Below are positions 397 to 22,500 of a stretch of 64,000 nucleotides of DNA, in pieces. A program made the position numbers and the translations under genes. The stretch's first letter is position 1. The number at the start of each line of letters is the position of its first letter. Source of the stretch: Haliotis asinina. Lineage: Eukaryota > Mollusca > Gastropoda > Lepetellida > Haliotidae. The stretch is from contig NC_090290.1 in NCBI RefSeq assembly GCF_037392515.1, forward strand, positions 36,605,253-36,669,252, read 5' to 3'. The notes under the pieces were generated by a model that did not search any database, had not been told where the DNA came from, and saw nothing but the letters and a program-made list of their open reading frames with translations.

Positions 397-2415
397 ATAT
401 ATTCTGACGAGTTCGGTGGAGCAAGTGCAGGAATCACTGCCAGAAATTCATCCAACGTGATTTTCCAGTTACCATCAGTATCCATATGCACAAAGGCGAG
501 CTGGAAAAGATAACAATAATACGAATAATAGTGATTCAGGAAAAGCATGTTACATATGCGAACCTCGCCTTTGAAATATCTCGCTTTCATCCCAGGTACA
601 CTGTCGCCAGATGACCTTGGTCTCGGTGCCCTTGGTTTGGTACCTCCTGATCTCTTGGCGCAAATTACGAGTGTGCCCGGGAGCACAACCCTTTTGACAA
701 TCTGGGTAATGCAGAAGGCTGCAGTGTTGGAGAGTCTACATAGTCTCCGGAACGTTCTTGGTGGGTTCGACTAGGCAGCGTTCCCTGGGAGAAGTCCCAT
801 TCGGGGCTGCGTGTAGAAGGGGCAGTGGCCCTGAGCTGATGATAAGCCTTACCAGCCTGAATGTGCCGAACCCTGTTTGCTGAGTTTTTCATCTGAATTT
901 GTAAAACATAATAATAATGAGAATATTTATAACGTGCCTTTCCCAGACTACATATCCTGCTCAAAACGCACAAACTGATCATTATTACCCCCGATAACCC
1001 AAGCTTCATGTCAGGCGTTGGAAGGTTCATACTCACCGGGTTTTCATCTTCTGCTGGGCGAACCGAAGCAATTTTTAACATACTCACTGACCCAACCAGA
1101 GGCCACACGTATCACACATGCATCGTTGTGAGGCAGGACTGAGGTCCTAGAAACTCCCAGAAGTCAAATTGCCAAACACTGATACCCATCCAAGATCTCT
1201 CCGCACCCCACGTAGTTTAACCTGATTTTTGACGTGAGCTCTACACACAGGACCACACACACCACGTGCACCACACAAAGAAGTCAAGGTCAAATACACA
1301 TGTTCAGAAATCGCAATTGCTTTTAGGCTCTGTTTTCTTATATATGTGACATACAAGTCATCTCTGTGTTTACGTGAGATTGATTACAGAATTTATTAAC
1401 ATTATCAATAAAAAGAATGAACAGATGTGGATTTAAAAATATGCGCCACATCAAACCACGTTATGTCTGACCAATCACGGCCTCTCACCAGATGCGGGAA
1501 AGTGACATTCAGAATGTGTTTTCTAAACATGCAACCTCTAAACGGCAATGCGGGATATTCTGAACGACAGCAAGGGATTGTACGACCCATTCCGTCCGAA
1601 TCATCGTCCATTTTCAGTGGATACACATTTTAACAGAAGAGACTTTGCATTCCTTTGCACTGGGAAGTACTACAGTATACAACCGAGGCCATTCTTAAGA
1701 TTTGTTTAGGTTTCGTACTCTGTGTAGAGAACTTTGTCAAGTTATAGCGTCCTTTGGAATTGAAGTCACGACTAGTGCTGAAAAGCTGGAGAAAATTCTT
1801 TTCTGATTGGCTGATGTCAATATTATGTTAGTAATTTCATTGGTCAATCAAAGTCGTCCTAGCGTAAGCTGTAATTGTATGTCCTCAGATGTCTTCGTCG
1901 GAAACGGTAGCTACGATTTGAATTCTGGGAGAACGGCATTTTTTCAGCATAGGGATTTCCTTATATCTGCTCATTGCATGAACAGGTCAAAATAAATATC
2001 CGCACCAGCATGAGAAAATATACTAAACAGCAAAAAAACGTAGCTCTGGTTTTTTTGTTGTTGTTTTTGTTGGGGTTTTTTCGTCAAGGTTTTTATAGAA
2101 GGCATCAACAGATATCATACTTACAGCAATGTCTTTTCTTGGTAGTCTATGGCCACAGATGATCAACAGCTTCTCAAACTCGTCAATGGTCAGTGCACCG
2201 TCTCCATTACCATATTCCGTGTCCACCTTCAGGAACAGGTCGATGTACACCTTCTTTTCTTCCTCTGGCAGTTTATTTCTCCCGACCAGAGGGCTGGGTG
2301 CGTTACTCGTGACGACCTGTGTTTGGTGGTGTACGCCGACCGTTCCAGGTATGGAGGTCGGTGCCTGCCCGGGGGAGGGGTCAAGGGCGAGGGGTAGAGA
2401 GTCCCTAGTGGTCAT
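397..2415 (-). CDS. EF-hand calcium-binding protein, calmodulin-like (gene A), partial at left edge
   Basis: Two coding exons are visible: 2125-2415 (97 codons, donor GTAAGT, phase 0) and 397-500 (104 bp, acceptor TTTTCCAG, donor GTAAGT, phase 2). The last exon, which should carry EF-hands 3 and 4, lies beyond position 1. The start at 2415 is chosen because a splice acceptor (CTATTCCAG) ends three bases before the ATG, so the 5' UTR probably begins in an upstream exon. Residues 1-50 are a Pro/Ser/Thr/Val-rich extension absent from paralogs B and C. The first EF-hand (D65-E79) has an enlarged loop with GNGDGAL. The second (D104 to E115) is DTDGNWKITLDE, with Trp109 in place of the usual Gly. 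By family knowledge such proteins bind calcium and act as sensors or buffers; the partner is unknown. Splice phases and the second-exon length match genes B and C exactly, which supports common origin. Confidence 0.85.
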
Positions 2416-2418
2416 ATT

Positions 2419-2759
2419 CTGGAATAGGAGACAATCGAATTTACGAACAAGAAAGAGGCCTTAAACGTGTTAATAGAAACTGATTTATGAAGACTCTTCT
2501 TTTTGATGATGGTGAAACAGTCTCGTTTGTGGGGACTGGTTTCTGCCTAGAGCTAGTTTAGGGGAATTGGCTTCGGGTCGCCACGCCTTCAAGAACAGAG
2601 GTGTTCTCAGGAAAAGCAGATATCTTTGTTAGGTCAACGAACACACATTTAATCAATAGGTATTTTAGACAAATAATTCAGACAAATAAATATATCAGTG
2701 GAGAAACTATTCAACTGAAAGTGCAAACAATATGAAAAGGCATCTTTGATGGGCGTTTT
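2419..2759. other. No gene seen; 5' flank of gene A
   Basis: Upstream of gene A on the minus strand. A 5' UTR exon is expected somewhere here or further right because of the acceptor next to the ATG, but I cannot locate it or a convincing TATA box. Confidence 0.3.
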
Positions 2760-3316
2760 CGAAGTTGAGTTGATGAAGAATGGTGACAATTTTATTGATG
2801 TAGAACTTCTTTATTCTGTGAAAGGCGACGTTCTAATGTCGTCATGCAAGACGTAGTGATATATGAGAGTGAGTGAGTGAGGTTATTTTTCCAGCTATAT
2901 GGCGGCGGTCTGTAAATAATCGAGTCTGGACCGGACAATCCAGTGACCATCCAGTGATGAGGATCGATCTGTGCAATTGGGAACCGATGACATGTGTCAA
3001 CCAAGCCAGCGAGCCTGACCACCCGAAGCCGTTAGTCGCCTCTTATGACAAGCACACTCGCCTTTTCTGGCAAGCATGGGTTGCAGAAGGCCTATTCTAC
3101 CCCGGGACCTTCACGGGTCTGATATATGAGAAACAAGTGAAGAGAACATATACATGAGCCGGTATTATTCATCCCCAATCTATTGTGATAAGGTACAAAT
3201 ATTCTGTATTTCATTCTGGTGTATCATATGCTTGACGACATTAGAATCTATGTAGAAGCCTTCACTATGCACATTGTCAATAAAGAAGTTTATATCAGAA
3301 TTGCCATCATTCTTAA
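2760..3316. mobile_element. Inverted-repeat element interrupted by a SINE
   Basis: The left arm (about 2760-2853, with GTTCTAATGTCGTCATGCAAG) and the right arm (about 3226-3316, with GCTTGACGACATTAGAATCT) are diverged reverse complements over roughly 85 bp. Both also contain ATAAAGAAGTT/AACTTCTTTAT. A family 1 SINE sits between them at 2868-3119. This looks like a non-autonomous inverted-repeat element that was later hit by the SINE. Confidence 0.55.
2868..3119 (+). mobile_element. Family 1 SINE-like element with target-site duplication
   Basis: Nearly full-length: GAGTGAGTGAG start, GGCGGTCTGTAAATAATCGA core and GACCTTCACGGGTC end. It is flanked by an 11-bp direct repeat, TGATATATGAG, at 2857-2867 and 3120-3130, the mark expected of a retroposed insertion. 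This is the best-defined copy for setting element ends. Confidence 0.8.
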
Positions 3317-3838
3317 TTCGACAACACCAAGATATACCTACAGATAATAGAAACATACTGAATTCAGAATGTTAACGCCATACTCTTTGTACAAGCACTG
3401 ATTGTAAACAAACACGATTATATTTCGTTTAATGAAAGGATTTAATATTTCAATAAACCATTTTATTGCCACTCTAATGATGGTCGTTAAACCTAATGGG
3501 GTAAAAAGATTACACACACACACAGAGAGCACACCACCCCCTTTGTTACACATGCAAGGACGAAACGGGACTAATAGCGTGTCCCAGATATGTTATAATA
3601 GGTGCTCATTCAATCGGAAGATATGTGAGGGGGTGCTTGACTACGTTCGTCTGTATGTGTATTTTTACTGAGCTGTTGATGTTTTATTACAGTCATCAGC
3701 AGTATTGTACGCGATATCTGCTCTTCTACTCGTTCAACGTGACCTGATCCAGAGAATACTAATGCATTGCATGACTGTATAACAACTGGTTGGGTCTATT
3801 ATTGAGAAGGGGTGCACCTTTGTCAATTGATTGTCAAC
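3317..3838. other. No gene seen
   Basis: AT-rich sequence with a short CA run near 3512-3522. No recognisable protein or RNA. Confidence 0.3.
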
Positions 3839-3990
3839 ATGACCGAACAGTCGAGGCAAGGTCGCCGTTTAACATATCAGGGTCGTGAAATCGTGAGCAA
3901 TGTCTCAATTTTCTTTGAAGAAAAGAAACTACTGATGGATTTCCGATGTATGCATGCATCGCATGAAAGCACAGTTAACAATTGTCTTTG
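3839..3990 (+). pseudogene. Possible transposase N-terminal remnant
   Basis: The reading frame MTEQSRQGRRLTYQGREIVS followed by NVSIFFEE resembles the N-terminal helix-turn-helix start of Tc1-like DDE transposases (a basic GRxLT..RE.V.NV pattern). It is short, and no catalytic part follows. Confidence 0.35.
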
Positions 3991-4329
3991 CTCCCCTATT
4001 TAATAAAGTTAACTCGACTCGCCGTTTGTGCCATTTGACCCCCCGAGTCATGCATATATGAAGTAAAGCTGTAATGCACAGATATGTTTCTATATCTGAA
4101 AAATCCCCTGGTTTCAGTTTCGATAATAAAGAGATAACTCAAACGATACTGAACAAAATATGTGTTTATATTGTCGAGTTTCATAGCCAACTAACACCTG
4201 GAGAGCGTGATCTAAGTCTGGAGGAGTTACGTCCCTTGTATGTGATGTGTCGCTATGTTATGTATCAATATATGGTTAAGTGGGAACTTTTACTCTGATA
4301 CGATCCTTCCTTACGTGAAGATAACCACT

Positions 4330-4494
4330 TTGCGCCGCACTCAACAATATTCCATCTATGTGGTGGAGGTCTGTAAATAATCACGTCTGGACCATGCGAT
4401 CCTGTGATAAACAGCATAGATGTACGGCGTTAGTCGCCTTTTACGACAAGCATGGGTTACTGCAGATCAGTTCTAACCCGGATGTTCACAGGTC
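4330..4494 (+). repeat. Family 1 SINE-like, internally deleted
   Basis: GCGCCGCACTCAACAATATTCC then GGAGGTCTGTAAATAATCACG. The middle part (GCATCGATC to the GACCACCCGATC section) is missing, and the copy resumes at GTTAGTCGCC and ends near GATGTTCACAGGTC. Confidence 0.7.
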
Positions 4495-4733
4495 AAACCG
4501 ACTAAAGTACGTTAGAGGCCTCAGCTGTGGTCGTCTGCTCTTGACTACTCTGACTGCAGTGACTTGTGGCGATCTGTCGATCAGTTCCAAAAGATATAAC
4601 TTCCTTGCACAGTATACAGTTATACCAACTCAAAAGTGCATGACTAGACTAAACTATCCAGTGATCAACGGCATGAACATCGGCCTACATAAGTGGGATA
4701 CGATGACTCAACCCCAATATATACTTACGATTA

Positions 4734-4865
4734 TATACTAGACAAAAATAGTTTGGGATATTATATATTTTGAAACCAAAAACAGTGATATATTTATTTA
4801 TTGACACCCGGATAACATACCAATCATCAAAATACCAATATTAATGACTTATCTTGTCCAGTATA
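4734..4865. mobile_element. MITE, copy 1 of a three-copy family
   Basis: About 130 bp with terminal inverted repeats: TACTAGACAAAAATAGTTTG at the left and the complement of TACTGGACAAGATAAGTCAT at the right. TA flanks fit a mariner/Tc1-type target. Related copies lie at 40909-41039 and 55747-55880. Confidence 0.65.
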
Positions 4866-5011
4866 GTTAAACTGTAGACATTTAAATACTCGATACTATT
4901 ATCATACTCTACTCAAGAAGGGAAATGCGGGTCCTTTGAACATAATGTAGTCAAAAAGGTGGACGAAATACCTGAATATTTGTATACTCACAACTAACGC
5001 ATGCACATACC

Positions 5012-5125
5012 CAACATAGCCTAGTGGGTAAAGCGTTGACAACCCGAACACCCGGGTTCGATTCCCCAGAGGTATACAATGTGTGAAGCCAAATTCAAGT
5101 ATCCCCTGAAATTGCTGAGTGAGTT
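5012..5125 (-). repeat. Family 2 SINE-like, reverse orientation
   Basis: On the plus strand it reads CATAGCCTAGTGGGTAAAGC and then CCGGGTTCGATTCCC, the reverse of the tRNA-like half. It is head-to-head with the copy at 5150-5285. Confidence 0.65.
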
Positions 5126-5149
5126 ATTGAGTCTAGTTTTAAGCCGGTT

Positions 5150-5285
5150 TTTTTCTGCAATTTTCGGCAATATGATGGCGAGAGAAGCAGACATGGGCTT
5201 CTGACACTGTACCCATGTGAGGAATCGAACCCGGGTCTGCGGAGTGACTAGTGAACGCTTTAACCACGAGGCCACCCCACGGCCT
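5150..5285 (+). repeat. Family 2 SINE-like
   Basis: Contains GGCAATATGATGGCG, TGTACCCATGTGAGGAATCG and ACGCTTTAACCACGAGGCC. It is followed within 35 bp by a 21-bp minisatellite. Confidence 0.7.
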
Positions 5286-5317
5286 GATATTGCAAGAATA
5301 TTACAAAGGTGGTTAAA

Positions 5318-5522
5318 CATCAGCAACAACACATTAATCATCAGCAACAACACATTAAACATCAGCAACAACACATTAATCATCAGCAACAACACATTAA
5401 TCATCAGCAACAACACATTAATCATCAGCAACAACACATTAAACATCAGCAACAACACATTAAACATCAGCAACAACACATTAATCATCAGCAACAACAC
5501 ATTAAACGTCAGCAACAACAAC
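5318..5522. repeat. 21-bp minisatellite, about 9.7 copies
   Basis: The unit is CATCAGCAACAACACATTAA plus one base (T or A). Copies differ mainly at that T/A position. Because 21 is a multiple of three, it creates open frames on both strands (HQQQHIN-type and LLLMFNV-type) that I do not regard as genes. Confidence 0.95.
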
Positions 5523-6390
5523 TGATGCCAAATAAATGACAATATTGCCTAGTAAAACTATATTAAACTCGATGAGATGGGGGTTGAACTGATCTGAAAT
5601 ATCCACAATAGACTAATGTCTGACAGTTTCATTAAAACACAACATGACAGTCTGTCTTTAACGTTGTATACATGGGGTGACATTTGGTGACATTTTTAAT
5701 TCTACCCTACTAATATTACATGTTACATCAACAAATACACAAGATTACAAATAACATCTACAAAAACACGAAAATGAATTGTATATGAATTATATTCATA
5801 AATGAATATATGACAAATATGGTAGAATTTTAAACTTTATTGCAAATGGTTTAAACATATTTGTATCTCAGAGAATCGGTAAAGATATGACCTGGATCGG
5901 TAATAAGGCAAAACGTGTACATATCAATACCTCTCCAGGTTATGTCTTGAAATGGTTTAAGCATTGAATACTAAACTCTCACCTCAAAGATTTGGGAACA
6001 AACTGAACGCGTATTCTGCCATTGCAGCATGAGTTGTCATAAACTAAATTGTTTTATAACCCCAGTGCCCTAGGTCCTATCTGATTACTTTTATGACCGA
6101 ATTCTCTAATACACGTTATACAGACAGAACAGAACAAAAACTCAAACCTTGGCGTTGTAATCTGCGGCTCCAACCTTGTCTATGTATGGTGCGTCTCGTG
6201 AAAGATACCTACTATCCCCAACTTCTGTATGTATGTAGATATGCGTCAGCAGATATTGTGTTACGAGCAACCGCCATCACGTATTCATTGAATCTGTTGC
6301 CATTTCTAATGTGCATCCAACAGAATCAAGTCCGATCTCTAAAGCAGAAATTAGAACTGAAAACTCATATCTTCACGGCAAAGATTTGCG
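5523..6390. other. No gene seen
   Basis: AT-rich. The open frame at 6093-6404 has no recognisable domain or splice context. Confidence 0.3.
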
Positions 6391-6548
6391 ATGGGATAGT
6401 CTAGTGGTTATAGCGTTTGCTCGTCACCCCGAAGACCTGGCTTCGATTCCCAACATGGGTTACAATGTGTGAAGCCCATTCCTGGTGTCCCCGCTGTGAA
6501 AAGGCTAGAACATTGGTAAAAGCGGCATAAAACTATACTCACTCATTC
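6391..6548 (-). repeat. Family 2 SINE-like
   Basis: Reverse orientation: GATAGTCTAGTGGTTATAGC, then GGCTTCGATTCCC, ending with AAAGCGGCATAAAAC and ACTCACTCATTC. Confidence 0.75.
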
Positions 6549-6928
6549 ACATTTGTGTTTAAAGTTGAATTCACACAGAAACATTGTCTAATTGTTTATA
6601 ATATATATTCATCATAACATACACATTTGATAAATAGATCTTAAGGGCATTATAATTAATTGAATGTAACAGACATCAATTTATCAACAGTGTATGGAGA
6701 TTGATACATGAAACAATTCCAGGACGAACATATTCAAGGGTTATTCAGTTGCAAGCTCATCACCAAAACAGCGTCAAGCTTGTTATTGGAACATATGACA
6801 TGCATTAAACACATATGGATTACTGCTCATAGTGTCGTGTCAGCCTTGTGGAACCCATGCAACATATGTGACTCCAATATTCAGAGGAGTAATTCATGAA
6901 CACAGGATAGCAGTATGCATGTCGGGCG

Positions 6929-7169
6929 TGAGTGAGTGAGTTTAGTTTTATGCCGCACTCAGCAATATTCCAGCTATATGGAGGCGGTCTGTAAATAATC
7001 GAGTCTGGACCAGACAATCCAGTGACCAACAACATGAGCATCGATCTGCGCAATTGGGAACTTATGACATGTGCCAACCAAGTCAGCGAACCTGACCACC
7101 CGATCCCGTTAGTACGAAAAGCATGGGTTACTGAAGGCCAGTGTTCTAAACCGGACCTTCACTGTCGTA
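6929..7169 (+). mobile_element. Family 1 SINE-like, nearly full length
   Basis: Runs from GAGTGAGTGAGTTTAG to CGGACCTTCACTG. GGGCGTGA occurs at both flanks (6924-6931 and 7170-7177) and may be the target-site duplication. It has a small deletion in the GTCGCCTCTTACGACAAG stretch. Confidence 0.75.
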
Positions 7170-7422
7170 GGGCGTGAAAGACCAGATTTAGACTAGTACA
7201 GACACAGGTATGTACCTTCCGTGATATTGTAAAATTTGACAGCAACGTGAAACCAGGCACGCTCTACTTACGAAAAGTCCGTATTCTGCAGCTTTAAGTT
7301 TTTCGTGGAATTCAAAGTGTCCCAATTAATCCTGCCCATTATCACCAGCTGATGCCGAAAGGGACTTTTACTTGTTTTAGACACGAATGAGACGGTCCAC
7401 GGTTTGGGAGGAGATCAAGATA

Positions 7423-7580
7423 TGAGTGAGTGGGCAAGATTGCATATTGCGATATTGCAGCAATGTCAAGACTGGGGAAATCTAGAAATGGGCTTCAGAG
7501 ATTGTACCCACGTAGGGAATCGAACCCGGATCTTCAGCATAACGACCTCTTCAACCACTGGGCTACCCCACTGGCCACCA
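7423..7580 (+). repeat. Family 2 SINE-like
   Basis: ATGAGTGAGTGGGCAAG, then GATATTGCAGCAATGTC, GGGAATCGAACCCGGATCTT and CTGGGCTACCCCACTGGC. This copy shows the tRNA-like half well. Confidence 0.75.
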
Positions 7581-8005
7581 TGCTATTACACCTGAGCCCA
7601 GATGTAGAGACATGGCATCACGTCTATTTAACGCTTGACTCCCAAATTCCTTAAATATCTAGCTGAATTGATGATACTCGCAACCTTTCGTTCTTATGTC
7701 TGTCGAGGACACCTGACAGTGAGCTTAACAGTCCCCGTTTTGTCCTTAAAGGCACAATGTCACGCTTTTTCGACAATATTTTGGCCTGTAATATATACTC
7801 ATATGCAGAAGTAACGCAAGTCAAGTATAAAGAATACCTGTATGTAATATTCAACATTTAATACAAGAAATGCAAACAGGGTCAGAAAGTCAACAAATTG
7901 AGTGAAGATATTACATTGGCTAAGAGGACTGATGATATCAGTAAGTTTTAGAAAGGTAAAGGGATTGACAAGAACGAATCTCCCTGGTTTTGATTTGTAA
8001 TGTGT
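7581..8005. other. No gene seen
   Basis: Unique-looking sequence without a recognisable coding frame. Confidence 0.3.
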
Positions 8006-8215
8006 CTATCTTGTCGAGGGCGCGGTGACCCTAGGACAACCGCTAAGAGGAAGGTCATCCGTGGTCTGTGTTGTGTTGAATCGATGCTGGACACGGTAAA
8101 TCGTGGTTATGTTTACATCGAAATAACGGGCAACATCCTGAACAGACACTCCAGCTTCAAAACGCTTGAGAACCTGGTCTCTTTCAATTTGAGTTAAGCG
8201 TGGCGTATGTATATT
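8006..8215 (-). pseudogene. Tc1/mariner-like transposase fragment (helix-turn-helix part)
   Basis: The minus frame contains RLTQIERDQVLKRFEAGVS, VQDVARYFDVNITTIYRV and a DLPLSGCPRVT stretch. Together these form the paired-like N-terminal DNA-binding domain plus the GRPR-type linker typical of Tc1-like transposases (here SGCPR). About 65 residues survive. The DDE catalytic domain is absent, so it is a dead fragment. A second Tc1-like piece lies 1 kb to the right in the opposite orientation. Confidence 0.75.
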
Positions 8216-8296
8216 GTTGAACAAGGAGTGATAGGTCCAGCTTTGGGGCAGTCTAAAACCCAGTGGTGGTGACAATTCCTGCATGTTCGATGTCAT

Positions 8297-9119
8297 GACA
8301 TGACACTCACGTGTTTATTGGTATGGTGCGTTTTGTTGATTCCTTTTATTGATTTTTATTCAGGCCTCCCAACATTATTAATAACACAATCAGGCTTCAC
8401 TGCATGCCAAAACCCCTGCGATCGGCCTGAAAATGATGATTAAGATTTCGAACTGTATATAGATGCATGGGTAGAGAGTAGGCGGAGAGGTATTTTCAGG
8501 AGCTGTCAGAAAAACTGCCAGAATCCACAGCGGTGTACCGAAGATCGACAAGGGGGTGGAATGACAGAGAAACATTTTCTTTAAGACAAATAATATATTC
8601 TGTTTGCAGAGGTCAGGAAAAGTTGAAATACCGTTGTGCCAACATAAGACCAACACTACGTTGGGTCAAGTAAGCCATAGTTTAGTGTGATGTTCCATTC
8701 ACTGGCCCAACAATGAGCCAACATGATGGGTCCATCGTCAGTTCGACAACCATGGGCCAACCAAACCGGTGATTAAGGGCCAGCGGTGGACCATCATATC
8801 AATGCTCTCTGGGGTACCTCTAACTGAACCTTGTGAACACAGAACAGACATTTTATTCTAAACGTTACATGCAGCGACACAGAGAACAAACGACATATTG
8901 ATACACAAACTAACCAGCACACGAAAGTACACAAGTGTATTTGTTGCTGCAATCCCAAATTTGTGTTCTAACTAGTAAAATTATTGAAGAACACTGATTA
9001 TGTAGAACGCAGTCATGATGTTTCGTTTGCCAAAATGCAACTAAAAACATTTGCTCGTTTTGCACGGATTTTGCAAATCGTGATGATTGTCCTATGCACG
9101 AGCAATTTTTGTACAGAGG
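8297..9119. other. No gene seen
   Basis: No domain recognised. A compact GC-richer stretch near 8700-8815 with several GGGCCAAC/GAGCCAAC motifs may be an unclassified repeat. Confidence 0.3.
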
Positions 9120-9545
9120 GTATCAAACCTTTTTCCCGTGGAGACTGAACGACCACTTGACAAAAATCTCACGAGAAAACGCCAAGACTGACATCGGCGC
9201 AACGAGAACGGGCCACAGGCATGTCACAAGGACAATGTTTGCAAGGACAATGTTTGCAAGGACAAACCATAACTCGACAATGTGAGAGCCCAGACATGTG
9301 ATCGACCCAGAAGTGGACGTCCCAGAGTCACAGCACTCCTAGAGGATCGCTATCTGCAGGTTATTCACCTACGTAACTGGATGTTGACGGTGACGTCATC
9401 TGCAGTCACATCATTGGGTCATCACGTAAGCCAATTCACAGTGACAAGACGACTTCGTGCTCCTGGCATATGGACCCTGCGACCGCTGCGTTGAATGACC
9501 TCGTCCTTCCAGGGTCGTACGAACCTTCTGCACTGGTCATAACTA
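9120..9545 (+). pseudogene. Tc1-like transposase fragment
   Basis: The frame DRPRSGRPRVTALLEDRYLQ then VIHLRN, TVTRRLRAPGI and RPLR is the second half of a Tc1 DNA-binding region: the GRPR AT-hook linker followed by the second helix-turn-helix. The upstream frame (ISRENAKTDIGATRTGH) and the downstream frame (FQGRTNLLHWS) look like parts of the same element in shifted frames. Short direct repeats of CAAGGACAATGTTTG at about 9228-9265 interrupt it. Confidence 0.65.
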
Positions 9546-10440
9546 CATCGCTGTTTATTGTTACAATGTCATTTTACTGATAAAACACGTGTATTGCAGC
9601 GTGCTTCAACATACATTTTCCATTTCATCAGAGGGTTTTGTTATTTTTAATCCTTTTTGAAGAAACACAACCTTTGTACTTTCTTTTGCTTCTCAGTTTA
9701 TTAAAACATTGAACAAAGTCCAGTTTGATCAATTTTGCATCTAATTAGTTAAATGGTGAATGATCATATTTCATTAGAAACTCAAACATTTCACAATTAA
9801 GATGTTTACAGAAACATTGGGAAAGAAATTAATGTCTAAGGGAATTTAGGGCTGGTCAAAATAGCGTAATATGGAGTTCATCACAGAGGGAAGATGAATG
9901 CAGATGTCTATCTGTTATATCTTTCAATTCCGTAACAACGTCCTGTTTCAATGGGCAACCAGTGGTTAAAGTCAAACAGAGTCTATAGTAATAAGGTCAT
10001 TGTAACAAATAAGGTTCTAAAAAAGAGAATGCTTGTATATTATATAGTCATAATGATACCTGCTGACGTCATCTCCCCACTGACGACGTCAGTGAGAAGA
10101 CATATGTTGGCGTGTATGGAGGCCCAGTGTGGTCACACCTGCTAGTGATAACGTGTCTCTTGGCCACTGTTTCATTATGTGCCTCTATTGCGCTGTTTAA
10201 ATGAAATCACATCTGTGTATTTTTCAATTTTGAACCCTTTCGCTCTTTCCTAATAAACTGAGAGAAATAATTTCAGATATCACCACATCGGTGATAACTT
10301 TCCTTTGCCCGGAGGTTTACACTGTGGCTGTAGAATCAATGAACAGTCTAGACATGCTTGACTTAGACTGTTTAAACATTCCAAAACCACCAGTCTTAGT
10401 TATCAAGCATCATTTTCTTTTCTAATTGTTGTCCCTCATC
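9546..10440. other. No gene seen
   Basis: AT-rich, no coding frame recognised. GACGTCA motifs cluster near 10060-10090 (TGACGTCATC, TGACGACGTCAGTG), probably by chance. Confidence 0.3.
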
Positions 10441-10650
10441 TCACATTACACCTGGCCCCGATTTCTCGAAACAAATTTAAGTCTGAGTTTTGACTTAAGT
10501 CTGAGATTTTACTCAAATTTGAGAAAACACATTTCTCAGAATGAACTGATATCGGCACAAAACTCAAACTACAGGAACAATTTGAGTTTTGTGAATAGAT
10601 TACTTAATTGGTTTGGGTTTTATAGGTAAAAAAAATACATTTGAGTTAAA
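10441..10650. repeat. Possible interspersed repeat with internal inverted motifs
   Basis: Starts CCCCGATTTCTCGAAACAAA and contains many short inverted copies of CTCAAATTTGAG and AAAACTCAAA/TTTGAGTTTT. It resembles an unclassified hairpin-rich repeat; its borders are guesses. Confidence 0.35.
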
Positions 10651-11590: not shown

Positions 11591-11811
11591 AGAGTCATCT
11601 TCGTAACTAACATTTGATTTAAGACTTACGGAGTGTCCTCATCGTAAAAAAGCTTACCAAACATTACTGTATATTCTTTATATTGTATGTATGCACGTAC
11701 CATCACACATTTCACACAGGGGTTAACCATTCCTTCCCAGACTGCACAGCGAACTAGCGCTACGGGAAGCGTTACCACAAGCACCTGTCAGTGACTAAAT
11801 AAACATATTTC

Positions 11812-13892
11812 TAGCGACATTCCGGCAATGTGATGGGCATCATCAGACACTAACATTCCAGCAATGTGATGGGAATCATCAGCCACAGACATTCCGGCAA
11901 TGTGATTGGCATCATCAGACATTGACATTCAAGCAAAGTGACTGACATCATCAGACACTGACATTCCAGCAATGTGATGGGCATCATCAGACATTGACAT
12001 TCCAGCAATGTGATGGGCATCATCAGACATTGACATTCAAGCAAAGTGACTGACATCATCAGACACTGACATTCCAGCAATGTGATGGGCATCATCAGAC
12101 ACAGACATTCCGGCAATGTGATGGGCATCATCAGACACTGACATTCCGGCAATGTGATGGGCATCATCAGACACAGACATTCCGGCAATGTGATGGGCAT
12201 CATCAGACACTGACATTCCGGCAACGTGATGAACATCAACAGACACTGACATTCCAGCAATGTGATGGGCATCATCAGACACAGACATTCCGGCAATGTG
12301 ATGGGCATCATCAGACACTGACATTCCAGCAATGTGATGGACATCATCAGACACTGACATTCCAGCAATGTGATGGGCATCATCAGACACAGACATTCCG
12401 GCAATGTGATGGGCATCATCAGACACTGACATTCCGGCAATGTGATGGGCATCATCAGACACAGACATTCCGGCAATGTGATGGGCATCATCAGACACTG
12501 ACATTCCGGCAACGTGATGAACATCAACAGACACTGACATTCCAGCAATGTGATGGGCATCATCAGACACAGACATTCCGGCAATGTGATGGGCATCATC
12601 AGACACTGACATTCCAGCAATGTGATGGACATCATCAGACACTGACATTCCAGCAATGTGATGGGCATCATCAGACACAGACATTCCAGCAATGTGATGG
12701 GCATCATCAGACACTGACATTCCGGCAATGTGATGGACATCATCAGACACTGACATTCCAGCAATGTGATGGGCATCATCAGACATTGACATTCAAGCAA
12801 AGTGACTGACATCATCAGACACTGACATTCCAGCAATGTGATGGGCATCATCAGACACAGACATTCCGGCAATGTGATGGGCATCATCAGACACTGACAT
12901 TCCGGCAATGTGATGGGCATCATCAGACACAGACATTCCGGCAATGTGATGGGCATCATCAGACACTGACATTCCGGCAATGTGATGAACATCAACAGAC
13001 ACTGACATTCCGGCAATGTGATGGGCATCATCAGACACTGACATTCCGGCAATGTGATGGGCATCATCAGACACAGACATTCCAGCAATGTGATGGACAT
13101 CATCAGACACTGACATTCCGGCAATGTGATGGGCATCATCAGACACAGACATTCCAGCAATGTGATGGGCATCATCAGACACTGACATTCCGGCAATGTG
13201 ATGGGCATCATCAGACACAGACATTCCAGCAATGTGATGGACATCATCAGACACTGACATTCCGGCAATGTGATGGGCATCATCAGACACTGACATTCCA
13301 GCAATGTGATGGGCATCATCAGACACAGACATTCCAGCAATGTGATGGACATCATCAGACACTGACATTCCGGCAATGTGATGGGCATCATCAGACACTG
13401 ACATTCCGGCAATGTGATGGGCATCATCAGCCACAGACATTCCAGCAATGTGATGGGCATCATCAGCCACAGACATTCCAGCAATGTGATGGACATCATC
13501 AGACACTGACATTCCGGCAATGTGATGGGCATCATCAGACACTGACATTCCAGCAATGTGATGGGCATCATCAAACACAGACATTCCAGCAATGTGATGG
13601 GCATCATCAGACACAGACATTCCGGCAATGTGATGGGCATCATCAGACACTGACATTCCAGCAATGTGATGGGCATCATCAGACACTGACATTCCGGCAA
13701 TGTGATGGGCATCATCAGACACTGACATTCCGGCAATGTGATGGGCATCATCAGACACTGACATTCCGGCAATGTGATGGGCATCATCAGACACAGACAT
13801 TCCGGCAATGTGATGGGCATCATCAGACACTGACATTCCGTCAATGTGATGAACATCAACAGAAACTGACATTCCTTACACTGACATTCCTC
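11812..13892. repeat. Satellite array of a 36-bp unit, about 58 copies
   Basis: The unit runs TGACATTCCGGCAATGTGAT then GGGCATCATCAGACAC. Variants include CCGG/CCAG, ACTG/ACAG, GGGCAT/GGACAT and GAACATCAAC. A rarer diverged unit with AAGCAAAGTGACTGAC occurs three times, near 11926, 12036 and 12793. The marker AACGTGATGAACATC recurs exactly 288 bp apart (12223 and 12511), showing an eight-unit higher-order repeat that is near-identical over at least its first four units. The length being a multiple of three leaves long minus-strand frames: 669 codons in a LMMPITLPECQC-type frame, and 359 plus 251 codons in an SDDAHHIAGMSV-type frame. No signal peptide, splice site or unique flanking coding sequence accompanies them. 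Confidence 0.97.
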
Positions 13893-15004
13893 TTCACATG
13901 TTCTGCAACTGCAAGTATTCTTTGCATGTTTCGCAAATTCATATGCCCTTCACATCTTGTGGAAATAGATATATTGTTTACATGTTCTGGAACTATAGTA
14001 TTAATGCTACCTCTTGCCGATGATAACTACCTGCTTTGGAAAAATTGCATGTTGCAAAAAGCTCTCTAAAATTGTCAAAGACATATTCTGGCAATTATTA
14101 CCGAACGTTCACCTTATATTTCCAGTTATATTTCGGAAAAGGGTTTAATAACCACAAAGGTGATTTTTTATTGAGTCTGCAAATACATTTCATGTTTAAA
14201 AATCATTTACATGAATTACATTCCAAAACAGAAACTCCAAAATTATTTCTCAAATTGAACATTAGTGTAACCTTGATGCCACACCCCAAGTTGAATTGTA
14301 AATGAGTTTGCTGAAAAACAATTTGAATGACCCAAAACAAGTCAGACTGAAATATTCCCAGAGACGTGAGATATACATGTATGCCCAATGTTAAAGATAA
14401 AATTGATTAGTTGCGTACAGGTACAATATTAATGTTTGGAAACTCGTTTATCTGGTGATTTATAATTACATTTCCCTAAAACTGTTAAAAGCGCACGTAC
14501 AATCATTACAACAAGCCGGCAAGATCGTCAGAAATATGCTCAGTTGCATTCGTCACCACTCGCCCCTCTCCGTAATCCCCAAGAAGACTCGTCCCGCCTA
14601 TCGGTGCGTATCACGAGCCAAAATGCGACAAACCAATCAGAACTCGAGTAATGAGTGCGATACTTCGATAAAATTAAGACCGACTTCTTAAATCGTTTAT
14701 GACATAATGTTATTGTTTTTAAAAACATGACAAATATATATCGTCCATATTGTAAGTACTAAGAGCGTAGCTATCAGAATATTGCTGTTATTGCTTTGTA
14801 TGACAAGGGATGTGCACATTACATGAAACACTGTGAACAATTAGGCTTGTTCCACTCATCACGTACCGCGCGTGCATTTGTTTCGCTGTTCCAACTACTG
14901 CGCTTACCCTCTTGTCATACAAACCGATAATAACGATCTGAAACTATGATTGTTTGTTAAACAACTTTTATCAAAATTTGAATAAAATTCTGAAATTCAA
15001 ATGT
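13893..15004. other. No gene seen
   Basis: AT-rich unique-looking DNA between the satellite and the Penelope-like element. Confidence 0.3.
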
Positions 15005-15054
15005 TCAGTTGACATACAAGACACTATTATGGATGACAACTTCTTTAATTCTTT

Positions 15055-15100
15055 TAACACGACGTTTCAAGGCTAAATCTTGCCCCTTCGTCAGGTGGAT
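15055..15100 (-). ncRNA. Hammerhead ribozyme core, left terminal repeat of the Penelope-like element
   Basis: Minus strand: CTGACGA (15088-15094), an AGGGGC...GCCTT stem II, GAAA (15065-15068), then CGTC (15061-15064). This fits the type I hammerhead order CUGANGA / stem II / GAAA / very short ACGU stem III / GUC cleavage site. CCAC before the core and GTG after the site can begin stem I. Minimal hammerheads with such short stem III are known from Penelope-like elements. Confidence 0.65.
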
Positions 15101-15976
15101 AATGAACATAGATAACATTGCAGAATATATACAGGTATACATGAAGCCAGAGAGGTAAGATGTATATACAAGCACATAAATGTAATTAGGTATGTACAAT
15201 CACAGAGGAGAGATGAAAGGAGTAAAGTTTTAACAGTACATAGTTGTTTACACAGCTGATAGATTGTGAGTCTATGAGTCCTTGTTGACACACCAGGCAG
15301 AGGGTAGGTACACGCCTTGATCTCTATTGATCTGAGGTTCTAATCTTCTGATGTTGATTGCTTTCCAAAGCTTTCTTCTCCGCCAATCACTGATGTTGGA
15401 ATCCAGGATCTCGGTGTTTTTCCAGTTGATGGAGTGGTTTGGATAGTTGACGATGTGTTCAGAGAGGGCCGATTTCAGATCTAACTTTCTTACTGAAGTT
15501 TGGTGCTCTTTGAGTCTGATGTTGAATGGTCTGCAGGTTTCACCTATGTAGCTGCTGCCGCAATCACAGTTTATCTTGTAGATGCAGCCTCTGGGGTTGG
15601 GGTTGGTTTGATCACTGCCTCCTCTTCCATTTGCTCTAAGGATGTTTTTCAATGTCTTATCAGAATAAAAGGTCACATCAACACTGGCAGTTTTTCTGAG
15701 GAGTCGGCTTTGGCACGTCTGGCTAGGGTGGAGACTATGGCTTGCTTTATTTGTGGATGGTGGTTGGATAGGTAGTGGATATACTGGTCAGTGTGGGGGG
15801 TACTTTCGATAGACAGTGGGAACGATTTTTTCAGATGAGTTGTCAAAGGATACGTCTAGGAATGGCAGCTTGTGTTGGGCTTCTACTTCCATCGTGAACT
15901 TGTACTTGTATATACATCTTACCTCTCTGCTTTCATGTATACCTGTATATATTCTGCAATGTTACCTATGTTCAGT

Positions 15977-16022
15977 ATCCACCTGACGAAGGGGCAAGAA
16001 TTAGCCTTGAAACGTCGTGTTA
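15977..16022 (+). ncRNA. Hammerhead ribozyme core, right terminal repeat of the Penelope-like element
   Basis: Plus strand: CTGACGA (15983-15989), stem II, GAAA (16009-16012), CGTC (16013-16016). It is the mirror copy of the motif at 15055-15100, and every core base is kept in both copies. Confidence 0.65.
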
Positions 16023-16112
16023 AATGAAGAAGTTTAAAGAAGTTGTCATGCATAATAGTGTCTTGTATTACCTCACCAACTTCTAAATGCCTTTGAAGAA
16101 TTTCTTCAGTTG

Positions 16113-16756
16113 ACATGACAGAATTATGAGGATTTGCATTCTTAATTTCACTTTATTCGATGTACTTTTTTGTTTAGAGTGAAATTCATCGGTACGCTTC
16201 CACTTCAGACAGACTATAGACACTGTTCCCTGACGTAACAGCTCTACAGCTACCAAGGGGAAGGTTGGAGGGATTTTTTAAAAAGAAAGACAACAACCCT
16301 TATTATTTTGAAAAGTATTACAACGCCGCAATATTGTACGGCGTCTGTGGTATTTTGCCAACACATTTCATAAATGTTACGAAAACGTTGGAATTTTACA
16401 TATATTGAACAGCAAAAGAAACGCCACTCTGGTGGTTTGGCCTTTTTATTATTACTATCATTATTATTTTTTAGTTATTCATTTTGTCAAGTATATAAAT
16501 GGAATACATACACGTTTACTGTTATTAAATTTCATTTTTTTTCAAAACTTGCCTTTCTTTTGCTGTTCAGTATATACTGTTAGCATCGGTGGGTAGTTTC
16601 TTTTACACGTCAGTTTATAGCAGTATATTTCAGCAAAACAGCATTCCCATTCTGCACGAAAAGTATGAGTGCACCGAGACCAGTTGAAATATCCATGCTT
16701 CGACTCTCGTTAAACCACATGTGTCAGATAAGATTGCATCCCATCGATCTATGCTG
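16113..16756. other. 3' flank of EF-hand gene B
   Basis: AT-rich. The minus strand carries AATAAA (complement of TTTATT at 16445-16450), about 310 bp past the gene B stop, a plausible poly(A) signal. No other gene is seen. Confidence 0.4.
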
Positions 16757-18904
16757 TTATTTGGCCACGTATATAGCGAGGAATTCCTCAAAGTTCAGCT
16801 TCCCATCTCCGTCTTTGTCACATCTGGCTATAAGGTCGCGGATCTGGATCTTGCTGAGAGGTTGACCTGCCTTGGACATGATGACCTGAAACTCCTCCTG
16901 GGTCACGAAACCGTCTTTGTTGACGTCATATACGTCAAATATACGTCGAATCCTGGCGGCGCTGTAACATGGTATGAGTGAGTTTAGTTTTACAAGACTC
17001 TAGCAATATTCCAGCAATATCACGGCGTGGGACCCCAGAAATGAACTTTACACATTGCAGGTGGGCTTCACACGTTGTACCTAGGTAGGAAATCAAACAG
17101 AGGTTTTCGATGTGACGAGCGAATGCTTAAAACCTCGAGGCTACCCCACCCCAACCACTAACATGTTATGAGATTATGAAAACCTGACATGAACACTGAA
17201 AGCACATACCAAATGAATCATTCAGGAAAATCATCAGTACAATGAGTCAGTTAGTTTAGTTTTACGCCGCACTCAGCAATATTCCAGTTATATGGCGGCG
17301 GTCTGTAAATAATCGAGCGACCAACAGTGATCAACAACATGAGCATCGATCTACGCAATTTTGGAACCGATGACATGTATAGACCAAGTCAGCGAGCCTG
17401 ACCACCCGATCCCGTTAATCGCTCCTTACGACAAGCATAGTTGCCTTTTATGGCAAGCATGAGTTGCTGAAGGCCTGTTCTACTCCGGGACCTTCACGGG
17501 TCTCACTACGATGACATTGCATTGCAATTCTTTAACATATCTCTTGATGCGTCATAGTCTTTGGATCAGCGTGGCTAGTTGCGGTTTTTAGATAACAATG
17601 AAATCAGGTATGGCTTGCTTAGGGAGTGTTTGTGTATTTCACCTGACCTTTCAAAATATTTCAGAAAGCATCTCCTTCACAATACCATCAAATAGTGAAC
17701 GAGTGCGGTTAGGTTTACGCCGCACTCAGCAATATTCCAGATATATGTCGGCGGTGTAAATAATCAAGTCTGGGCGAACAATCTAGTGATCAACTGCATA
17801 AGCATCGATCATCCAATCCCTTTTGTCGCCTCTTACGACAAGCATGGTAGATCAATTCTAACCCGGATGTTCTCGGAACTCCCCTGAAATAATAACTGTA
17901 ATAGCATACATGATATCAGGTAATAGCAATGGAGATTATGACTAGAACGGTGTTCCATCGCAACGGTGTGACGGTTCATGTTCCACTATGACATCCGAAC
18001 TGGTCGTGGTACGCAGAGCCGTGCTGCATTATTCTCTAACTTCAGTATTTAACGGAAATGAATACATTTACTTGCTGTCTTCCAGTGCTTAATCATCCCC
18101 ATATTAGGACTTGAAATGGAGGCACAGATGTGGTAAATGATATGTATGCATTCTTCCGGTTCATGTCCTGCAAAGCTATAAGGTGTCGGCTTGGCTACCA
18201 AGTCACCGGATTCACCAATATGGTGAGCATTTACGGCTGGTACCATTCCGATTGTCCTCCCTCGATGGTATTAACAAACCACATGTACTTCCAACGCAGC
18301 GTTATTTCTTACCATCCCGCCCAACTCGAAAGTGTTCCACTTATTCAACTTACGCAAAATCTGCCGAATCAGGGGGAGATAATCGAGGGAGAACTGCAAG
18401 GAACTCGTCCAGCGTGATCTTCCAGTTCACATCGGTGTCCAGCTGAAGAAAGACTCTCTGAAACATTGAGTCATCATAACAAGGACAGATGGTAGGGTAA
18501 AGGTGAAATTCAATGCCTATTGAAGAATTGAGTTCTAAACCGGAAAATGATGTAACTTACTTTAATCTCGGTGTCTTTCTCCGCCATATTTTAATGTTGC
18601 TACAGTTACCATATTGTAAAAACAATTCACAGACAGTTTGACAGACAGACATACGTTGGACGGATTAACGACCGGACGGAGGGTCAGCTAGTACATATAG
18701 TATGACATATGTGGAATACATTAAATGAGTATGATCAGATGAACTTACGGCAATGTCCGCCCTGGACACCCTATGGCCACAGAATATCAACAGCTTCTCA
18801 AACTCATCAATTGTCAGCGCGCCGTCTCCATCACCGCTTTCTGCGTCCACCTTTAGGAACATCTCCGTGTACGCCATCTTTTCCTCGTGCGAGAGCTGGG
18901 CCAT
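16757..18904 (-). CDS. EF-hand calcium-binding protein, calmodulin-like (gene B), complete
   Basis: Three exons: 18749-18904 (52 codons, donor GTAAGT, phase 0), 18354-18457 (acceptor TGTTTCAG, donor GTAAGT, phase 2) and 16757-16961 (acceptor TGTTACAG, stop TAA). They join to 154 residues, close to calmodulin length. An acceptor-like ACTTCAG lies six bases before the ATG, so the 5' UTR is probably split. EF1 spans D20-E34 and is longer than a standard loop (SGDGDGALTIDE at its end). EF2 is residues 59-70, DTDVNWKITLDE, with Trp64 at the Gly position. EF3 (99-110, DVNKDGFVTQEE) and EF4 (135-146, DKDGDGKLNFEE) are canonical. There is no signal peptide or membrane segment, so it is probably cytosolic. 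The C-terminal lobe should bind calcium; the N-terminal lobe may bind weakly or not at all. Intron 2 carries three SINEs. Confidence 0.9.
16973..17156 (+). mobile_element. Family 2 SINE-like element beside a gene B splice acceptor
   Basis: TGAGTGAGTTTAGTTTTACA, AATATTCCAGCAATATCACG, then CTCGAGGCTACCCCACCCC. Its GTGAGT end lies about 12 bp from the exon 3 acceptor of gene B. On the gene's strand the SINE therefore supplies the sequence just upstream of the 3' splice site. Confidence 0.8.
17242..17503 (+). mobile_element. Family 1 SINE-like, near full length
   Basis: In intron 2 of gene B, antisense to it. It runs from AGTTAGTTTAGTTTTACGCC to GACCTTCACGGGTCT. GGACCAGACAATCC is lost from the middle. 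Confidence 0.8.
17700..17882 (+). repeat. Family 1 SINE-like, internally deleted
   Basis: Also in gene B intron 2. It begins GTGCGGTTAGGTTTACGCC, skips from GCATCGATC straight to ATCCAATCCC, and ends CCCGGATGTTCTC. Confidence 0.75.
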
Positions 18905-18914
18905 TTGGGTCTGA

Positions 18915-19200
18915 AGTTGTATGTCGAGGTAGAATGTCAGATAGATAAGTGTCTCGTCTGGGCCAATGTGTGATTATCCCGTCAGTGTGTAATTACTCTC
19001 GACGCCAGATAGATGCGTGAATTCTCTCGTCTCTGGGGATCCCGACAGTGTGTGAATACACTCTTCTCGTGATGCCAGGTAGATATGTAAATACTCTCGT
19101 CTCGTCTCGTCTCGTCTCGTCTCGTCTCTTGATGTCGGGTAGATGTGTGAATACACTGGCCTAGTGGTGCCTGATGTGTATGGTGTGTGAACATTCACGT
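18915..19200. repeat. Imperfect tandem repeat with a CGTCT run
   Basis: Diverged units of roughly 55-70 bp containing GCCAGATAGATGCGTG, CCAGGTAGATATGTAAATAC and CGGGTAGATGTGTGAATAC. A pure run of the pentamer CTCGT lies at about 19084-19127. It sits directly upstream of gene B. Confidence 0.7.
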
Positions 19201-19365
19201 TAAATGATGACTTGGCGAATACAATATATCAGCTCCTGTTTGGGTCTTGACACATCTCCACAATCAAGGAGCAACGTCCTCGACCACATCCGTATTAACT
19301 TCCCACAGTCTAATCTGCTCTACAAACAGGATGTCTGTATGTCCACATTAGTAGCTATAGTGTTA

Positions 19366-19369
<4 letters not shown>

Positions 19370-19457
<88 letters not shown>

Positions 19458-19746
19458 CTGTGTCTATCTACCTCTTTATTTCTTTGATTCTTTGTGTGTG
19501 TCTGCCTCTCTGTCTCGCTCTCTGTCTCTCTTCCTGTGTCTCTGTCTGTGTCTATGTGTCTGGCTCTCTGTCTGTGTGTGCCTAACTGTTTCTCTGTGAG
19601 CCTATCTCTCTGTGTGCCTCACTCACCCCCCACCCCAACCCCCTCTGTGTGTGTGTGTGCCTGCTTCGCTTCTCTGGGTATGTGTCTGCCTCTATGTCTC
19701 TCTGTGTATGTGTCTGCCTATCTGTGTGTGCGTGTCTGCCTCTCGT
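19370..19746. repeat. CT microsatellite followed by GT microsatellite and degenerate tail
   Basis: CT dinucleotides fill about 19370-19428, GT 19429-19457, and then an interrupted CT/TG mixture continues to about 19745. Serine/leucine- and cysteine/valine-type frames arise from it and are not genes. Confidence 0.95.
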
Positions 19747-20095
19747 AGAGGACGGATACATTCACGTCGTCCGATTACGTCCCAGGCGTAACTTCAGGGG
19801 TCATATTGGTCACTGAATTCTTGTGGCGTCTTGTTGCTGCAGATACGTTCACGTCTTGAAAGACAGACATGGACCAGCAAGATGCCGAAAAGACATAAGC
19901 TATTGCGGGGTTGACGACGTTTCATTAAAATGTTAAATTGTTTTGAATGAACCAGAAGGGTCAAATTTCTATGATAATAAACTAGAAGGTTTTCCTAAAA
20001 CATATAGAAACATGTCACCAACAGACTGACTGGACACTGACCCTCTGACCCACATACGACGTCCCGTGTGCGCAGAATAAGTAAACTTGGCGATA
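19747..20095. other. No gene seen
   Basis: Intergenic DNA between the two pyrimidine-rich tracts. Confidence 0.3.
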
Positions 20096-20099
20096 GATG

Positions 20100-20445
20100 T
20101 CAGTGCGTCTCTGTGTCTACCTCTCTCTCCCACTGTCTCTGTAGGTTCTCTCCCTCCCCTCTCTTTCTGTGTCTCTCTTCTCCACATAATGTCTCACAGT
20201 AACTCAGTGTGTGTCTCTCCATATGTCTCTTTCCTTCTCTCTCGATGTCTTACTGCCTCTCTGTTCTCAATCTCCCTCTGTCTTTTTCATTCCAGTGATG
20301 TCTCACTGTCTCTGTGTGTCTCCCTCCCCTTCTCTCATTGTCTCTCTCTCTCTTCCCTCTCTCTCTCCTCTGTCCCTCTCCCTCTTCTCTCTCTCACACA
20401 CTCTCTCTCACTGTCTGTCTCTCTCCCTCTCTCTCTTTCAATGAT
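20100..20445. repeat. Degenerate CT-rich tract upstream of gene C
   Basis: Polypyrimidine sequence (CTCTC, TGTCTC, TCCCT) ending about 150 bp before the TATA box of gene C. Such tracts can act as GAGA-type or nucleosome-excluding elements, but nothing here proves this. Confidence 0.85.
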
Positions 20446-20593
20446 GTTTCGCTGGAACTGCGTGTTGTCTCGGCCAAGTGCTATACGTACTTAAAACTTT
20501 TCAAAGAATCGGACCACGTACGTCGCAAACAAGGAAGTGGATATCGTTGTCAACAGTTCTCTTGTGGCGTCACAGGAACTACGCGGATGTCTG

Positions 20594-20601
20594 TATATAT
20601 A
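20594..20601 (+). promoter_or_regulatory. TATA box of gene C
   Basis: TATATATA 63 bases before the ATG at 20664, leaving room for a start site near 20625 and a short unsplit 5' UTR rich in CAACAAC. Confidence 0.6.
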
Positions 20602-20663
20602 CAGCTCTCATCTACTAACACAACAACAACCTCGACAACAGTGAAACTACACAGTCTGTAACA

Positions 20664-22500
20664 ATGTCGCACTTATCTCAAGCAGAGAAGACCCTGTACG
20701 CTGACTACTTCCTTAGAATGGAAGCTCAGCTGGGGAATGGAGATGGCGCTCTGAGTATAGCGGAGTTCGAGAAACTGCTGCAGACGATGGGATTCAGGTT
20801 CACCAAAGAACAAGTGGCGGTGAGGATGTGTTCATATGGCATTTGTTGCCGTTGCCGTTGTTTGCAGTCCTCATATGCTGTAGTAGTAGTAGTAGTAGTA
20901 GTAGTGGCCGCAGCAGTTGCAGAATTAAACGTTGTGGTAGTCGTACATTGTAGTCATTATGATATTGATTATGATCAATAGTATTAAAAGTAGTGGTAGT
21001 AGTGAGTGATTATTGTTTAACGTCGCATCTCTAATTTGGTACCAAATAAAAGATTAACTGAAACTTATTCGGATGAAGTGAATAGTTAGTTTACTCTGTA
21101 CATCATTTTTGTTGCAGGCGGAGTTTATAAAAACCGATACAGATCAAAACTGGAAGATTACTCTTGAAGAGTTCTTGGCTATCATGCCAAATGTGGCTCC
21201 CCCGGGCTCGCCCCAGGCCATGTGAGTAGACACGAAGTGTGGTGTCCTGAAAGTGTCAACAGTCGATACTGCCCAATATTAACCGTTAGCATTTATGAAC
21301 CTTTTACTTACTGCTAGTCTTGTGATACGCCACACAGTCCTTACAAATTTGTCTCTGTGAAGCCGATTTCAACATCAGATTCTGTCTCCACGGATTTACA
21401 TTTTGTCCGTAACCGCTTGGCTTCTCAGGAGATTGAGTAATGATTATTAGCACTGGTATTGACATACCACCTGTGATACGGTACATCACCATAAATTATT
21501 CACGACGATATAATACCAATGTATTGTGCCCTGAAGTTGTGATCTGATACAAATCCCGATTAGAGGCTGAGGATACATATCGCGATTTTAGCTCTATAAC
21601 CAGCTATAAAACACCTTAAGATCCAAACAAAAACCATGTGTAAATGAAGGAACCTTTAATTTGAAAAACTACATATTACGCACTTTTTGAAAACCACAAT
21701 GATTATTTAAAGCGAAATACTGTTAGCTGTCATAAAGAGAAAATAGAACAAAAAAGGTTGTTAATATCTGCATATTGCTGGATGGTGTCACTGCAGCCAT
21801 AAAATAGAATGAAATTTGTGCTGATTTTAATATTATATCTTAACAGCTATCGTGGCCCAGTTGAAGCATCGTATCGGAACATACGACAATCTAAAACTTT
21901 CCATCGATTCAATGTCGGCGGCCCGTGGAGCGATGTGTCGATTCGTACCGATCACATCACTATTAATTACCTCATCGTGATGAATACTCCTCATTAAGGC
22001 AGACATCTTGTCCTAGACCAGTGAACACTGACTGGTTCTGAAAAACTAAGGATTCTTTATAACAGCATGACTGCAGATGACTCATAGGTAACACGAGTGA
22101 TTATGCACGCAGGAACCAAATGAACAACTGCTGTATGTTATATATGGACCGAAGAATATGGAAAGTTAAAATATGTCTGTCATTTATATTCTATATTTTG
22201 GTGCTTTTCAGTGCAGCGGATATCCGACGGAGGTTTAACGAGAACGACTTGGACAAAGACGGCTTCATCACATTTGATGAACTGAGGAAGGTGCTTGCCG
22301 ACGCCAACCAGGACAAAACAGAAGAGGAGCTGAGGACATTTATTAAGGACTTCATCAAGAACTGGGATGCGGATGGAGATGGTAAAATCAACTTTGAGGA
22401 GTTTCTGGAAATGTACTTGGAGACCGCATTGTGCAATGACAGTAACAATGATGATGATGATGATGATGATGATGAAGAAGAAGAAAAAAACGAGAAGTGA
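20664..22500 (+). CDS. EF-hand calcium-binding protein with acidic tail (gene C), complete
   Basis: Three exons: 20664-20819 (52 codons, donor GTGAGG, phase 0), 21118-21221 (104 bp, acceptor GTTGCAG, donor GTGAGT, phase 2) and 22212-22500 (acceptor CTTTTCAG, stop TGA). They join to 182 residues. EF1 spans E20-E34 and is enlarged, with GNGDGALS in the loop and no acidic residue at the usual first position. EF2 (59-70) is DTDQNWKITLEE, with Trp64. EF3 (99-110, DLDKDGFITFDE) and EF4 (139-150, DADGDGKINFEE) are canonical calcium loops. After residue 160 a tail of eight Asp and four Glu, ending KNEK, is encoded by a GAT/GAA run; genes A and B show no such tail in the visible parts. It is divergently placed relative to gene B (shared 1.8-kb upstream region). 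A cytosolic calcium sensor or buffer is likely; the partner is unknown. Confidence 0.9.
20879..20905. repeat. GTA trinucleotide microsatellite in gene C intron 1
   Basis: About eight AGT/GTA copies just inside intron 1. Reading through the donor creates a valine/alanine run that is not part of the protein. Confidence 0.9.
21001..21050. repeat. Short family 3 repeat fragment
   Basis: AGTGAGTGATTATTGTTTAACGTCGCATC resembles the head of the longer element at 32507-32930 (GTGAGTTAATATTTAACGTCACATC, spread over the same spacing). In gene C intron 1. Confidence 0.5.

Follow-up and report, generated by a model that had tools for sequence, protein, structure and literature searches.

Three old EF-hand paralogs of Haliotis asinina share a tryptophan at position 6 of the second calcium-binding loop and a displaced ligand in the first

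Overview

Three paralogous EF-hand genes, here called A, B, and C, lie within 22.5 kb of the 64,000-nucleotide stretch of Haliotis asinina DNA analyzed here (the window), and all three encode tryptophan at position 6 of the second calcium-binding loop. We consider it likely, with a fair measure of doubt, that they are old duplicates of a calmodulin-like ancestor with Trp6 and a displaced ligand in EF-hand 1 (EF1) and that EF-hand 2 (EF2) still binds calcium, with changed affinity or kinetics. Gly6 is regarded as all but indispensable for an EF-hand of high affinity, and a loop with intact ligands and an anciently kept Trp offers a natural test of that view.

Gene structure of the cluster

A six-frame scan for the motif D-T-D-[GVQ]-N-W-K-I-T-L-[DE]-E gave three matches, starting at positions 482 (minus strand), 18439 (minus strand), and 21136 (plus strand), and in the gene models GT/AG splice sites link each exon carrying the motif to an exon encoding EF1. 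Scan and gene models together confirm the observation, made in a sequence-only reading of this DNA, that Trp occupies position 6 of EF2 in all three paralogs. Genes B and C are complete and gene A is partial, and the limits of the span from 397 to 22500 are set by the end of A exon 2 and the C stop codon. The exons are as follows.

2415-2125, minus strand: gene A, first visible coding exon; EF-hand 1, preceded by an N-terminal extension of ~45 residues
500-397, minus strand: gene A, exon 2, 104 nt; EF-hand 2, loop DTDGNWKITLDE at 482-447
18904-18749, minus strand: gene B, exon 1, 156 nt; EF-hand 1
18457-18354, minus strand: gene B, exon 2, 104 nt; EF-hand 2, loop DTDVNWKITLDE at 18439-18404
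16961-16757, minus strand: gene B, exon 3, 205 nt including the stop codon; EF-hands 3 and 4, DVNKDGFVTQEE and DKDGDGKLNFEE; Pfam EF-hand_7
20664-20819, plus strand: gene C, exon 1, 156 nt; EF-hand 1
21118-21221, plus strand: gene C, exon 2, 104 nt; EF-hand 2, loop DTDQNWKITLEE at 21136-21171
22212-22500, plus strand: gene C, exon 3, 289 nt including the stop codon; EF-hands 3 and 4, DLDKDGFITFDE and DADGDGKINFEE, and an Asp/Glu-rich tail; Pfam EF-hand_7

Gene A is cut by the left edge of the window (its third exon would fall beyond base 1), with 131 aa in view. Its first exon in view ends at a donor reading ATTGCT followed by gtaagt and has an acceptor-like cag that ends 3 bases upstream of the ATG, and its exon 2 is bounded by the acceptor ttttccag and the donor gtaagt. 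Gene A presumably also encodes four EF-hands, of which EF-hands 3 and 4 are predicted. Protein B has 154 aa (17.5 kDa, pI 4.7), and protein C has 182 aa (21 kDa, pI 4.2) with its Asp/Glu-rich tail. By eye, no signal-peptide-like start is evident in B or C, and the products of the three genes are most likely calcium sensors or buffers, with a presumed intracellular location.

The three genes have the same intron phases (0 after exon 1 and 2 after exon 2) and the same exon 2 length of 104 nt. When the three proteins were compared with the window by tblastn, no match outside the three genes was better than an E value of ~1; the B query in this search, and in the Pfam, solved-chain, viral profile, and prokaryotic profile searches below, came from a version of the model that lacks one Ala at the beginning of exon 3. 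Gene A lies only partly in the window, and the gene models are known here from DNA alone, so one might suspect pseudogene copies or a motif created by the models themselves. We regard this as very improbable, because open frames, GT/AG sites, and conserved phases are found in A, B, and C and synonymous change far exceeds amino acid change; a gene-model artefact in particular was rejected in view of the open frames, the splice sites, and the matching phases.

The window also holds features of other kinds. A 36-base unit repeated in tandem about 57 times (11816-13875) lies between A and B and is open on both strands, with frames of up to 699 aa. The frame at 15272-15787 (minus strand) resembles by eye the GIY-YIG end of a Penelope-like retroelement, with no Pfam match at 0.01, and the frame at 29442-29834 (minus strand) encodes a helix-turn-helix (Pfam HTH_23 and HTH_38), perhaps of a transposase. 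An open frame at 56645-57283 (plus strand) is like the propeptide of growth/differentiation factor 8 (myostatin; PDB 6umx, E = 3.2e-05, residues 123-205), has no Pfam match at 0.01, and, judging from that likeness, is probably the first exon of a GDF8/11-like gene. A 304-residue frame at 25503-26417 (minus strand), likewise with no Pfam match at 0.01, has a signal-peptide-like start (by eye) and a tail of GMNQGLPGMNQ-type repeats and looks like a secreted protein. No Rfam match was found in the window.

Tryptophan in a second loop with intact ligands

In A, B, and C alike, the EF2 loop carries a full ligand set, with D, D, N, T, and E at positions 1, 3, 5, 9, and 12. All three loops thus have the canonical Asp/Asn at positions 1, 3, and 5 and Glu at position 12, together with the hydrophobic Ile at position 8. 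The canonical Gly at position 6 is replaced by Trp in 3/3 genes, and Gly occupies this position in all 7 remaining loops that can be seen (EF1 of each gene and EF3 and EF4 of B and C). The EF3 and EF4 loops of the C-lobe, in view for B and C only, are canonical.

Profile scores indicate how unusual this residue is. With W in place of G at position 6, the score against Pfam EF-hand_1 is 11.2 to 11.3 bits lower for the A, B, and C loops. We then varied this residue in the B peptide and took Pfam scores for every amino acid except I, M, Q, R, S, T, and V (13 in all). Against EF-hand_1, the scores ran from Gly (25.8 bits) down through Asn (21.6), His (20.7), Glu (20.5), Lys (20.3), Cys (20.1), Asp (19.3), Phe (19.0), Ala (18.7), Tyr (15.1), and Pro (15.0) to Trp and Leu, tied for lowest at 14.5. 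Trp was also the lowest of the 13 residues with EF-hand_7 (14.1, versus 20.8 for Gly). With EF-hand_6, Gly scored 25.6 and Trp 20.5, which is mid-range among the 12 non-Gly residues (17.9 to 23.0). Two of these profiles thus mark Trp6 as unusual, and to the third it is no more deviant than other replacements of Gly. Among the ten aligned matches to solved structures (5 of 251 and 5 of 138 for the EF2 peptide and EF2 profile queries), none has Trp at position 6. The motif words had no match in the full-text literature, a text search that is blind to figures and sequence databases.

A displaced ligand in the first loop

EF-hand 1 reads [DE]-[AT]-[EQ]-x-G-[DN]-G-D-G-A-L-[ST]-I-[DA]-E in A, B, and C, and its loop spans 15 residues. 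When it is read as a 12-residue loop, position 1, canonically an acidic ligand, is Y in A, S in B, and L in C, and the acidic residue lies three places upstream; in 3/3 copies, therefore, three extra residues displace the first ligand. Two residues of this loop, D27 and E34 (B numbering), are invariant across the three proteins. An extended first loop also occurs in plant calcineurin-B-like proteins. HMMER alignments place a three-residue gap at EF1 against one calmodulin loop and the 4il1 fusion, and other calmodulin loops align without a gap. Because EF1 and EF2 are both non-canonical in all three proteins, we do not regard A, B, and C as true calmodulins.

Both N-lobe EF-hands thus deviate in A, B, and C, and Trp is the lowest or tied lowest of the 13 residues in EF-hand_1 and EF-hand_7, as might be expected if the N-lobe had become an interaction module that is insensitive to calcium or holds its shape constitutively, in which case Trp6 and the altered EF1 would be signs that switching was lost and a fixed binding surface gained. 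Lost binding, however, should let D1, D3, N5, and E12 of EF2 drift, whereas all of these are invariant, as are D27 and E34 of EF1, and we consider such a module unlikely. The sequence-only reading had suggested a special lobe, for instance one with a calcium-independent binding surface; the EF2 ligands D, D, N, T, and E, intact in all three copies, speak against a calcium-independent lobe. Since all EF2 side-chain ligands are kept, retained calcium binding is favored over a calcium-independent lobe.

Age of the duplications and selection on the second loop

In the 82 aligned N-lobe codons, 56 residues are identical between A and B (dN of 0.19 to 0.22), and the A-B dS is 0.97 by YN00 and 1.40 by NG86. 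The A-C and B-C pairs share 43 and 42 residues over the same codons (dN of 0.41 to 0.42 by NG86), and dS against gene C is not estimable by NG86 or YN00, which we read as saturation. A blastn comparison (1e-3) of the five visible introns gave no match of one intron with another; its sole matches link B intron 2 to the 5' flank of A and are, by eye, a dispersed repeat that occurs elsewhere in the window too. The duplication is therefore old, given the high dS and the lack of matching introns. A very recent duplication, which had been named as the case in which selection would have had no time to act, is ruled out by the A-B dS of ~1.0 to 1.4 and the intron comparison.

In a stretch of 16 codons that begins with the EF2 loop, each pair of genes differs at 10 to 12 codons but at only 1 to 3 residues. 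In the 82-column N-lobe alignment, 40/82 columns are invariant, distributed as 10/12 in the EF2 loop (Trp6 among them), 8/15 in the EF1 loop, and 22/55 elsewhere. In a simple neutral simulation, Trp was retained in all three copies with P = 0.0024, 0.0086, or 0.033 under three assumed branch-length settings. On these comparisons of codons, Trp6 is maintained by purifying selection, which acts on the EF2 loop as a whole. The sequence-only reading had taken conservation in diverged copies as a sign of selection for a special lobe. Purifying selection and the keeping of Trp are upheld, but Trp is not singled out by conservation, because 40/82 N-lobe columns are invariant.

The same figures bear on whether Trp6 is a neutral ancestral quirk that arose once, is tolerated, and has no special role. 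One origin before the duplications would be enough, 40/82 N-lobe columns are invariant anyway, and Pfam EF-hand_6 puts Trp mid-range among the 12 non-Gly residues. Against this stands an A-B dS of ~1 or more, over which drift would rarely keep a residue with a single codon in all three copies (0.0024 to 0.033 in the simple simulation, with assumed branch lengths), and we consider this explanation unlikely.

Calcium binding and a possible role for the tryptophan

According to the reading that we favor, one ancestral four-EF-hand calmodulin-like gene would have given rise to A, B, and C by tandem or inverted duplication, and this ancestor would already have had Trp6 in EF-hand 2 and the displaced first ligand in EF-hand 1. 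A single origin of Trp before the duplications suffices for its presence in A, B, and C. EF-hand 2, with all of its ligands kept, most likely still binds calcium, and a bulky Trp where Gly normally eases the tight turn would change the affinity or kinetics of the site. The indole, which could also be exposed, probably packs against neighboring N-lobe residues or a target.

How well EF2 might bind is a separate matter. A published account (PMC5983762) presents Gly6 as a strongly conserved residue that is critical for high-affinity binding, and since W scores 11.2 to 11.3 bits below G, EF2 could be a poor site. EF1 is non-canonical too, and the whole N-lobe might be weak or silent. A residue other than Gly at position 6 can nevertheless be compatible with calcium binding, by a loose parallel with EF1 of NOX5, which has Glu at position 6 and is counted, in a section of PMC7317449, among four active sites, with a non-canonical loop and different coordination.

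More tentatively, it is possible that the three genes belong to a molluscan calmodulin-like subfamily in which the conserved Trp6 and the displaced EF1 ligand tune the N-lobe to another calcium range or to a specific partner, with Trp as a natural reporter in single-Trp members such as B. The sequence-only reading had likewise put forward, as a conjecture, an undescribed calmodulin-like subfamily expanded in this lineage. Protein B has no Trp other than Trp6 of EF2, and its fluorescence, or terbium luminescence, would therefore be a direct readout of this site. In a broader view the case is of limited interest, as other EF-hands are known to lack Gly6 and families of calmodulin-like genes are widespread. 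In other respects A, B, and C are unremarkable as calmodulin-like genes, and Trp6 is a modest variation on a familiar kind. In public molluscan genomes such genes may go by the name "16 kDa calcium-binding protein-like"; a literature search on this name listed one paper, on Schistosoma.

Comparison with known EF-hand proteins

All three proteins belong to the EF-hand superfamily, with Pfam EF-hand_7, EF-hand_1, and EF-hand_6 above the gathering score in A, B, and C. Three NCBIfam families were matched, all below the cut-off (the best was XopAW, 61 bits versus 120), which we take as general EF-hand similarity. Among viral contigs, a profile search gave 204 pattern stretches, none of them confirmed, and a DNA pattern search gave 0 matches. 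In bacterial and archaeal genomes, 1 of 175 pattern stretches from a profile search was confirmed, in a protein from an Akkermansiaceae MAG. This protein has several EF-hand loops (one with Gln at position 6), 28% identity, and no Trp anywhere in its frame, and we rejected it as a relative, regarding it as a distant EF-hand protein only.

The best solved chains by sequence were a calmodulin/calcineurin fusion and calmodulins (best 60 of 485 and best 60 of 405 matches). Calmodulin (PDB 1ggz, calmodulin-related protein NB-1; PDB 2l1w) likewise has four EF-hands in two lobes and a similar length, and it is among the best solved-chain matches listed mainly through the C-lobe of B and C; A, B, and C differ from it in Trp at EF2 position 6 and in the displaced EF1 ligand X. 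Calcineurin B (in fusion 4il1; also 3ll8 and 1aui) likewise has four EF-hands, and part of 4il1 can be aligned with residues 16-149 of B, but calcineurin B has Gly6 in the aligned loops and a first loop without the three-residue insertion.

Two molluscan proteins were compared with A, B, and C by description only. Bivalve CaLP, a calmodulin-like protein, is, in the portion of PMC5379566 that describes it, an EF-hand protein of two domains, each with an EF-hand pair. The Haliotis shell protein Hdh-SMP5, another EF-hand protein, as given in an excerpt of PMC10741955, has 134 aa and a signal peptide, in contrast to B and C, in which none is evident by eye. NOX5 offers a likeness at position 6 itself, since its EF-hand 1 also has a non-Gly residue (Glu) there and is calcium-active according to the relevant part of PMC7317449. 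That loop, however, is a non-canonical, calpain-like one in an oxidase, whereas EF2 of A, B, and C combines canonical ligands with Trp6.
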